Positions 3,661-5,344 of a stretch of DNA of 57,054 bases are shown here, in pieces. A model generated the notes under the pieces. It searched no databases, had not been told where the DNA came from, and was given only the letters and a program-made list of their open reading frames with translations. Location: IMG/VR virus record IMGVR_UViG_3300046787_000098, positions 1-57,054 of that record; one strand, given 5' to 3'. Positions within the stretch are counted from its first letter, which is position 1. Each line of letters begins with the position of its first letter. The stretch is from a virus. Both the position numbers and the translations under genes were made by a program.

Positions 3661-3864
3661 TTACACGAAAAACAGATCTGGACGCAAGTCTTTTCTTGTG
3701 ACCAAACCTTGTGTTGCTTTTTCGATTTTGACAGCGAGTGCGGCAGACGCAGTTCTGCGCTCATGGATCAACAGCGACATCCATGTCAGGCTGATGCCCA
3801 GATACTCTGCCATCTCACCTCTTGCGCCCAACGGCTCCGTCGAAAAATACTCCTGCAAGGTCAT
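3661..3864 (-). CDS. YdaS/Cro-like antirepressor-type HTH regulator, 67 aa
   Basis: MTLQEYFSTEPLGARGEMAE followed by LGIS-x-W-x-S-x-LI, ERR, and AVKIEKATQGLVTRKDLRPD matches the YdaS family of Cro-like DNA-binding proteins: the helix-turn-helix is at about 16-45, with the typical IE-AT-G-V-R-LRPD ending. It likely represses its own promoter. The ATG at 3864 gives the family-typical start; a GTG at 3891 would add nine residues. Three ACGTGT-type repeats at ~20-bp spacing lie directly upstream and would suit a dimeric autoregulator. No CI-type partner repressor is visible. Confidence 0.82.
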   Translation of the reverse strand: MTLQEYFSTEPLGARGEMAEYLGISLTWMSLLIHERRTASAALAVKIEKATQGLVTRKDLRPDLFFV

Positions 3865-3882: not shown

Positions 3883-3933
3883 TATGTACACGTCACAAAA
3901 ACATGTACACGTTTTGCCTTTTTATAGACACGT
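3883..3933 (-). promoter_or_regulatory. Three ACGTGT direct repeats, probable operator of the YdaS-like gene
   Basis: On the minus strand ACGTGT occurs at 3928-3933, 3907-3912 and 3888-3893. Two copies continue as ACGTGTACAT and one as ACGTGTCTAT. Their starts are 21 and 19 bp apart, so they face the same side of the helix. They end just before the coding start at 3864. Their position fits an operator array for the adjacent Cro-like protein. Binding is inferred. Confidence 0.5.
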
Positions 3934-3992
3934 TAGTTGTTGGTGTCCTGCCTTGATCTTTAACGCAGGTTGACGGTCTCAGGCTTTCGCCA

Positions 3993-4077
3993 CACCAACA
4001 CGGCTGGGTACTGCAAGGCTGGACGACAAGAGCCAGCATTAAGACGTTCAATACCCATGCGTGTAGGTTGTTGGTGG
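3993..4077 (+). ncRNA. Candidate structured RNA, unit 1
   Basis: On the plus strand CACCAACA (3993-4000) pairs with TGTTGGTG (4069-4076), and TGGGTA (4005-4010) with TACCCA (4052-4057). An inner stem GCTGG (4018-4022)/CCAGC (4033-4037) lies between. The second unit keeps the same plan, with the pair T4009-A4053 changed to G4141-C4206. AGCATTA and CCCATGCGTGT are shared. The nested-stem layout next to an early phage regulator recalls phage c4-type antisense RNAs (RF01695), but I cannot confirm that match. Confidence 0.5.
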
Positions 4078-4123
4078 CGACTGGGTTCTCCCGATCCGCA
4101 CGCACAGGTTTCCTATTACGCTA

Positions 4124-4230
4124 CCACCAACACGGCTGGGGACTGGATGCTCTATTACCGAGAGATGCAGGCCAGAGCATTAGGCCACTTTCGGTTTTTT
4201 CCAATCCCCATGCGTGTTAGTGTTGGTGGC
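4124..4230 (+). ncRNA. Candidate structured RNA, unit 2
   Basis: CCACCAACAC (4124-4133) pairs perfectly with GTGTTGGTGG (4220-4229), and TGGGGA (4137-4142) with TCCCCA (4205-4210). An inner ATGCTCT (4147-4153)/AGAGCAT (4174-4180) stem encloses a possible CTCT-loop-AGAG hairpin. An intrinsic terminator starts seven bases later (4237), suggesting a discrete plus-strand transcript end. It shares its ends and AGCATTA with unit 1 while the inner stem sequences differ but still pair. A c4-like antisense RNA is a candidate identity. Confidence 0.55.
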
Positions 4231-4236
4231 TCACAT

Positions 4237-4254
4237 AAAGCAGTGTGCTTTTTA
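4237..4254 (+). terminator. Intrinsic terminator after structured RNA unit 2
   Basis: AAAGCA (4237-4242), a GTG loop and TGCTTT (4246-4251) run into five Ts (4249-4253). It lies between the RNA-like unit and the promoter of the plus-strand operon, so transcripts from the RNA region would stop before entering that operon. Confidence 0.55.
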
Positions 4255-4366
4255 GCATTCGTCCGATTGTTAAATCTGTATTGGCGCTAACCCAATACAC
4301 CACCAACGGGCGCAGTATACATTAACTTTGAATTAAAAGAAACCCCACAATTTACTCAGGTTTGTG

Positions 4367-4396
4367 TTGCATTGTTTTTTAACTACGTGTTAAGAT
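4367..4396 (+). promoter_or_regulatory. Promoter of the plus-strand early operon
   Basis: TTGCAT (4367-4372), an 18-bp spacer and TAAGAT (4391-4396) fit a sigma70-type promoter. The -10 is inside a TTAAC-N5-GTTAA dyad (4379-4393) that recurs at 467-484. It is 37 bp upstream of the first gene (4433), which has AAGGAG before its ATG. Confidence 0.6.
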
Positions 4397-4432
4397 GCGC
4401 CCACGCTGATACAGCGGTTAAGGAGAAATCAA

Positions 4433-4973: not shown

Positions 4974-5344
4974 ACAAAGAACAATTACTTGACCAATTTG
5001 CAATTGAGGCAATGAAGGCAATTCAACGTCAAGAGGGTATGGTTGCTGTGCATAACGTAGCACTACGCGCTTATGGAATTGCAGAAAAAATGTTGGAATG
5101 CAGGCAAACGGTTTTAGACAATTGGGCATTGAAGGATGCAATTGTTGAAGATGGCATTGAAAAACTTGAATTGACTGTACGGTCTGAGCACTGTTTAAAA
5201 GCTGAGGGCATTTACACCATAACGCAACTGCTCACATACTCTGATATTGGCTTGCTTAGGGTACCTAATTTGGGACGCAAAAGCCTTAGAGAAATTATTG
5301 AGCAATTAGATGCACGTGGATTGAAGTTAAGGGGGCAAGCATGA
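4970..5344 (+). CDS. RNA polymerase alpha-CTD-like protein, 124 aa
   Basis: Residues about 63-121 closely match the C-terminal domain of the bacterial RNA polymerase alpha subunit. LELTVRSEHCLKAEGI aligns with the host LELTVRSANCLKAE, and VPNLGRKSLREI with TPNLGKKSLTEI. The DNA-contacting Arg265, Gly296, Lys298 and Ser299 equivalents (R71, G102, K104, S105) are kept; Asn268 is His74. Residues 1-60 are a separate helical domain and there is no alpha N-terminal domain, so it cannot assemble polymerase. It may bind UP elements or activators in place of host alpha-CTD (inference). It overlaps both neighbours by 4 bp. Confidence 0.85.
   Translation: MNKEQLLDQFAIEAMKAIQRQEGMVAVHNVALRAYGIAEKMLECRQTVLDNWALKDAIVEDGIEKLELTVRSEHCLKAEGIYTITQLLTYSDIGLLRVPNLGRKSLREIIEQLDARGLKLRGQA

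Follow-up and report, generated by a model that had tools for sequence, protein, structure and literature searches.

The closest described relatives of the RNA arrays reported here are the small RNAs STnc100, PasD1 and PasD2, which like the arrays are borne by prophages, often near late genes (PMC13192938, PMC12370729). PasD is structurally related to STnc100 (PMC13192938). STnc100 is encoded 75 nt downstream of stx2 and has been detected by RT-qPCR in STEC vesicles (PMC12370729), and PasD1 and PasD2 have been detected by Northern blot and depend on Hfq for stability (PMC8550237). All three have been described as single sRNAs and not as exchangeable bodies in alternating frames. Phage tRNA clusters agree with the arrays in strand and place; in phages L and Sf6 the late operon opens with tRNA genes at its 5' end (PMC8022706). 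Phage L has two tRNAs in this position, and the authors were unsure whether they are excised (PMC8022706). C4 antisense RNA (RF01695) is, like the arrays, a phage structured RNA found near immunity genes. GOLLD and ROOL are associated with tRNA genes. They resemble the arrays in being large, ornate, phage-borne RNAs (PMC12286853), but each is a single conserved RNA while the arrays are modular and of variable length. A description of the array architecture was not found in the open literature searched, a body of text in which subscription journals are mostly not included.

The locus studied lies in the window, which is the whole stretch of viral DNA analysed (57,054 nt). Between a -10 box and the leader of a Cro-like gene it carries five modules in the order B-A-B-A-B, read on the minus strand from 4307 to 3939 (Table 1). 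Two closing helices alternate along the array: helix B is GTTGGTG/CACCAAC and helix A is ACACG-CA-TGGGGATTG/CAGTCCCCA-GC-CGTGT. The first module begins 6 nt past TATACT, and modules B-2 and A-1 overlap by 2 nt (GT). The body of A-1 possibly forms a pseudoknot. The body of A-2 is common to two other loci (L020, L052) and that of B-3 to six (L041, L076, L218, L242, L244, L260). The Cro-like gene matches the PHROG 35 transcriptional repressor (E 1.7e-10); its start, aligned with relatives, is the ATG at 3864, the mechanical open reading frame beginning at 3891. Just upstream of this start codon ATGTACACGT occurs twice (3884-3893 and 3903-3912), 19 nt apart; the pair is operator-like and is missing from the short leaders of the relatives read.

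Table 1. Positions of the array modules and adjoining features in the window
Feature	Position	Strand	Remarks
-10 box TATACT, inferred promoter	4314..4319	-	coordinates read in the window
Module B-1	4222..4307	-	closing helix GTTGGTG/CACCAAC; two hairpins; B2/B4 family
Hairpins of B-1, by loop	GTTAGCG (4280-4296), TGCTTTAT (4229-4248)	-	loop-loop pairing proposed
Module A-1	4130..4217 (88 nt)	-	ACACG-CA-TGGGGATTG ... CAGTCCCCA-GC-CGTGT; unit 2 of the preliminary description
Module B-2	4070..4131	-	GTTGGTGG ... CCACCAAC
Module A-2	3998..4064 (67 nt)	-	ACACG-CA-TGGGTATTG ... CAGTACCCA-GC-CGTGT; unit 1 of the preliminary description
Module B-3	3939..3999	-	GTTGGTG ... CACCAAC
Cro-like repressor gene	3661..3864	-	downstream of the array; first gene of the transcript

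A preliminary description of this DNA had reported two tandem structured units, at 3998-4064 and 4130-4217. Both are real and lie where described, but they are two modules out of five, the array extending on both sides to 3939-4307. The details given for them, namely a T4009-A4053 pair in unit 1 replaced by G4141-C4206 in unit 2, inner stems GCTGG/CCAGC against ATGCTCT/AGAGCAT, and AGCATTA common to both (4035 and 4176), are all present in the sequence. From these paired changes a selected fold had been concluded. Two copies alone are thin evidence, and it is the comparison with relatives that settles the matter in favour of the fold. The fold z-scores are -4.9 (plus) and -4.5 (minus) for unit 2 and -1.7 (plus) and -2.5 (minus) for unit 1, so that folding energy alone decides neither unit 1 nor the strand. 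The alternating two-frame layout, the interchangeable bodies and the spread over hundreds of phages had escaped notice.

The frames are widespread in viral sequences. An arm pattern of 20 arm bases with the middle left free (CACGGCTGGG N40-70 CCCATGCGTG) has exact matches in at least 119 viral contigs, and in the GTDB species genomes in five stretches only, all in MAGs. Two more viral scans, each for an A end plus B, gave at least 119 and at least 120 contigs, with at least 200 distinct B bodies. Altogether A and B frames surround very diverse bodies at 324 or more viral loci; these viral totals are lower bounds, and many of the contigs are akin, so the counts do not represent independent events. 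A B helix immediately follows A in 95 of 169 cases, compared with 29 of 665 random positions, and the arrays reach four A units at L050 and L112. The sequence between the arms is wholly unlike from contig to contig, while body families recur across contigs with different flanks. BLAST with the entire region as query gave nothing relevant in phages or plasmids, since only the frames are conserved. Alternating closing helices, exchangeable bodies and an orientation on the tRNA strand define the arrays, and all three were found in the window and the related loci. A direct example of a body exchanged between frames is L009 (1597-1690), where an A frame holds a B2-type body (GGGTTAGCGCC ... CACTGCTTTATGTGAG).

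The RNA is encoded on the minus strand, opposite to the plus strand assumed in the preliminary description. This follows from the G.U-type pairing in the A helices and from the orientation of neighbouring tRNAs. The A arms hold a U.G pair on the minus strand where the plus strand would give a C.A mismatch. In a set of 82 loci obtained with a different pattern, which left the inner stem free and prescribed the ACACG end, pair 10 of the A helix is GC in 46, AT in 24, GT in seven and AC in three, pair 11 is GC in 50, GT in 16, AT in nine and AC in one, and pair 14 is TG in 70. Read on the minus strand, G.U-type pairs thus far exceed A.C. ARAGORN located 44 tRNAs within 1 kb of the arrays at viral loci; all 44 are on the RNA strand and 34 lie downstream. 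The promoter and the downstream gene also indicate the minus strand, and the plus-strand reading was rejected.

Two families of bodies give a topology with pairing between loops. The B2/B4 family, which includes B-1 of the window, has two hairpins with loops such as GTTAGCG and TGCTTTAT; the pair joining the loops is A-U in 15 and G-C in seven of 22 sequences and is broken in none. In the B3 family up to 6 bp form between the loops AGGCTGAT and AGATCAGCA; G-C and A-U replace one another there, and the stems covary. Members of both families were picked via their loop motifs, so that only the unfixed positions and the stems count as evidence; there were 25 double-changed cells in B2/B4 against 6.2 in shuffles and 25 in B3 against 6.5, values reached in 0 of 500 shuffles in either case. 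Complementarity between first and last loop in an automatic test across body families (23% against 7%, null sd 7%, about 15 representatives) is only suggestive, and loop-loop pairing is therefore not extended beyond B3 and B2/B4.

The B3 body is found within at least six unrelated closing helices, all of them paired: GTTGGTG/CACCAAC, TGTGGTG/CACCACA, TGTGATG/CATCACA, GATGGTG/CACCATC, AAACCGG/CCGGTTT (10 bp) and GAAGATG/CATCTGC (one mismatch in 10). This indicates selection on pairing and not on sequence. The 46 distinct B3 inserts fall into 40 unrelated clusters and range from 37 to 162 nt. B3 is thus a constant scaffold with a variable payload.

The arrays are also present in cultured phages and in Escherichia coli. 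Short frame-plus-body queries matched 208 phage records when the threshold was loose and 165 when it was set to E<0.01. Among 5,426 complete E. coli genomes, at least 1,147 were matched by one A'/B3 query. Phages P1, KP591P1, HK75, HK620 and CUS-3 have the same layout as the window. The frames in enterobacteria have a different sequence, ACAAC-AG-GTAAGAGCATTG ... CAGTGCTCTTTC-C-GTTGTGGTG; the layout is retained, and so is the inner end ATTG/CAGT including the U.G pair. In P1 an alternating A'B'A'B' array lies directly after tRNA-Asn and tRNA-Thr and has no RNA annotation, and in KP591P1 the array is upstream of tRNA-Ser, -Arg and -Met. The arrays of HK75, HK620 and CUS-3 are situated between Q and the holin gene, that of HK75 beginning 8 nt past the annotated tR'.

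Comparison with catalogued RNAs indicates that STnc100 (RF02076), as judged by model score and shared structure, is probably one such module. The model scores 47 bits against the array of UPM2146, over the cut-off, and 33.9 bits against the P1 B' module, below the 47-bit cut-off; seven other phage records and the window array were without a match. STnc100 and PasD resemble B modules in having a closing stem UGGUG...CACCA, a hairpin on the 5' side and, on the 3' side, a second one that adjoins the stem. The evidence for expression of modules comes from the reports on these relatives and concerns them rather than the window. This known module type does not cover the architecture of the arrays. 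The loops of the STnc100 consensus look complementary over 4 nt; the P1 copy breaks the complementarity, so no claim is made.

The Rfam scan of the window matched no family, and the GOLLD and ROOL models matched neither the window nor the 17 loci scanned. Matches of 3900-4400 to retron msr (E 3.4) and sR035 (E 4.9) were taken as chance, and sub-threshold matches of phage loci to Plastid-ycf2, mir-142 and permuted tmRNA were disregarded. The preliminary description had named a C4-type antisense RNA as one candidate. Such an RNA would act on a gene close by, and a structured RNA within a phage immunity region would suit it. RF01695 matched neither the window at gathering score nor 3900-4400 at E<=5; the strand is wrong and the architecture and neighbours are different, which makes this identity very improbable.

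The inverted repeats are imperfect and their centres vary, exchange is mosaic, and the array is present or absent at one site; all this could also characterize an element working as DNA, with binding or recombination sites (attC-like folded ends) and no RNA. We consider this quite improbable, because G.U is favoured over A.C on one strand only, the 44 tRNAs are all co-oriented, the array starts at a -10 box, loops covary with loops, and a catalogued RNA, STnc100, is probably one of the modules. By informal inspection no attC core sites were seen, and the integron reading was rejected on this and on the strand-specific G.U pairs. The part of the preliminary description that saw a structured RNA beside the Cro-like gene, and not merely protein-binding repeats, is borne out.

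The modules resemble tRNA in their arrangement. In the best-resolved bodies a 7-bp closing helix is followed by a hairpin of 4 bp with an 8-nt loop, then by an insert that varies, and last by a hairpin of 5 bp directly adjoining the helix. The acceptor stem, the D-arm and the T-arm of tRNA are the counterparts of the closing helix, the first hairpin and the last hairpin. Canonical T-arms within 3 nt of the 3' frame occur in 12 of 165 B and four of 211 A bodies, the maximum in shuffles being one. The Rfam tRNA model (RF00005) matches B modules in L056 (8318-8392, 54.1 bits) and L053 (1921-2033, 35.4 bits). The B' module of HK75 has a true T-arm, with a weak match to the tmRNA model (20.2 bits, below the cut-off). 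Most bodies fail to score as tRNA, and the window modules gave no RF00005 match and no ARAGORN call. These scores and arms identify a subset of the modules as tRNA-derived, and some bodies as true or near-true tRNAs. Unlike phage tRNA clusters, most modules have no tRNA features, B3 holds inserts of 37-162 nt, and the frames are fixed; in both, tRNAs or near-tRNAs occur. In L016, L033, L053 and L059, B modules on the RNA strand have tRNA-like D- and T-arms, combined with an extra hairpin in the D-loop or with changes in the region of the anticodon. These are possible intermediates between tRNA and non-tRNA modules.

The linkage to tRNAs on one strand, and the subset with true T-arms or a tRNA score, could be explained if the modules were functionless debris of phage tRNA clusters, that is, degenerating tRNA genes. 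This explanation is improbable and was already disfavoured by the compensatory changes that maintain both closing helices and loop-loop pairs; moreover, bodies recur in distant phages within different frames, and the alternating layout is retained across hundreds of loci.

The window locus in close relatives contains zero, one, three or five modules. The majority of the relatives read have an empty site (TATACTTGCCGCCAAGGAAGAACAATG) with the promoter region and the Cro-like gene unchanged. One module is found in L128, L145 and L149, three in L129, L132, L135 and L156, and five in L150 and the window. The arrays in relatives begin 6-8 nt past TATACT and end before the gene; TATACT and the 75 nt upstream are kept in 13 relatives with or without an array, L156 having a variant -10 box. 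From this polymorphism at a single locus, the array is read as optional, accessory cargo built as B(AB)n, where n is 2 in the window. A main role as a regulatory RNA for the divergent operons, as had been suggested, is unlikely when close relatives keep promoter and gene without an array.

The main rival explanation is a cis-acting mRNA leader that would not be excised and would serve the operon behind it through stabilization, timing or antitermination, in the manner of lambdoid put or qut elements. The array does span from just past the -10 box to near the start codon. Elsewhere arrays precede terminase genes or tRNAs; in 143 cases TerL follows in the same orientation, at a median of 554 nt. 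The arrays of HK75, HK620 and CUS-3 lie behind pR'. However, the empty alleles keep an identical promoter and gene, and the genes downstream are unrelated between loci (Cro-like, terminase, holin, tRNA, LexA-like). A terminator also seems to close some arrays, those of L010 and L019, and the bodies vary far beyond what is expected of a cis signal. A cis-acting leader is accordingly judged unlikely, less so than the other alternatives above.

The explanation we prefer, with slightly better than even confidence, is that the array is an accessory set of tRNA-like RNA modules, carried in a minus-strand leader and acting in trans. Transcription would start from the TATACT promoter on the minus strand, and the array would lie in the transcript ahead of the first gene of the Cro-like operon. 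A module consists of an A or B closing helix and an exchangeable body; in the best-resolved bodies two hairpins touch via their loops, in positions like those of the D- and T-arms. Modules may be derived from tRNA scaffolds or imitate them, and may be excised from the leader as tRNAs are. Once excised they would work in trans, either as small RNAs or as decoys, the variable body giving specificity for a target, and recombination in the conserved frames would swap modules between phages. A role in conflict with the host or with rival phages is plausible by analogy, since the arrays are polymorphic, mosaic and payload-like in the way of accessory phage cargo. A more far-reaching version, which we hold as tentative and rather doubtful, is that of plug-in, tRNA-shaped arrays with a fixed scaffold and interchangeable payloads, directed in trans against host defences or rival phages, in which an arms race would drive the turnover of payloads. 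Such arrays would correspond, at the level of RNA, to cassette arrays, and their modules could, for example, be decoys for systems that cut tRNA or sense RNA.

If the preferred explanation is true, hundreds of phages, and the E. coli genomes counted above, carry a largely unannotated class of modular RNA. STnc100 and PasD would gain a family and a structural logic, and a tRNA-like scaffold bearing swappable RNA payloads would exist as a natural system. As the model phages P1, HK75 and HK620 carry arrays, the question would be testable at once, and the empty phage leaders would serve as natural controls.

Some further features were found near the arrays. In L199 a match to Betaproteobacteria-1 RNA (RF02932, 92.6 bits) at 5185-5301 lies on the array's strand, downstream of the array and of tRNA-Pro, -Asn and -His. 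Short antisense coding sequences annotated as hypothetical proteins over arrays (L406 1211-1576 in Bas80, and similar records) are likely to be false gene predictions. A conserved stretch (GATGGTTTTCGT ... TTTTTAGAAACTGACCACAAAGATAAATGCAAACGA ... GCAAGGTCTTCCGACTCCTTGTC) just upstream of A'/B' modules is common to very different phages (KP591P1, Bas80, UPM2146 and HK620; L404, L406, L408 and L411). In the Klebsiella phage UPM 2146 (MN478483.1; L415) about 3.3 kb without an annotated coding sequence (88005-91341) separate tRNA-Met from a hypothetical gene. The region contains a B3 module and the STnc100 match, and may be almost wholly structured RNA.
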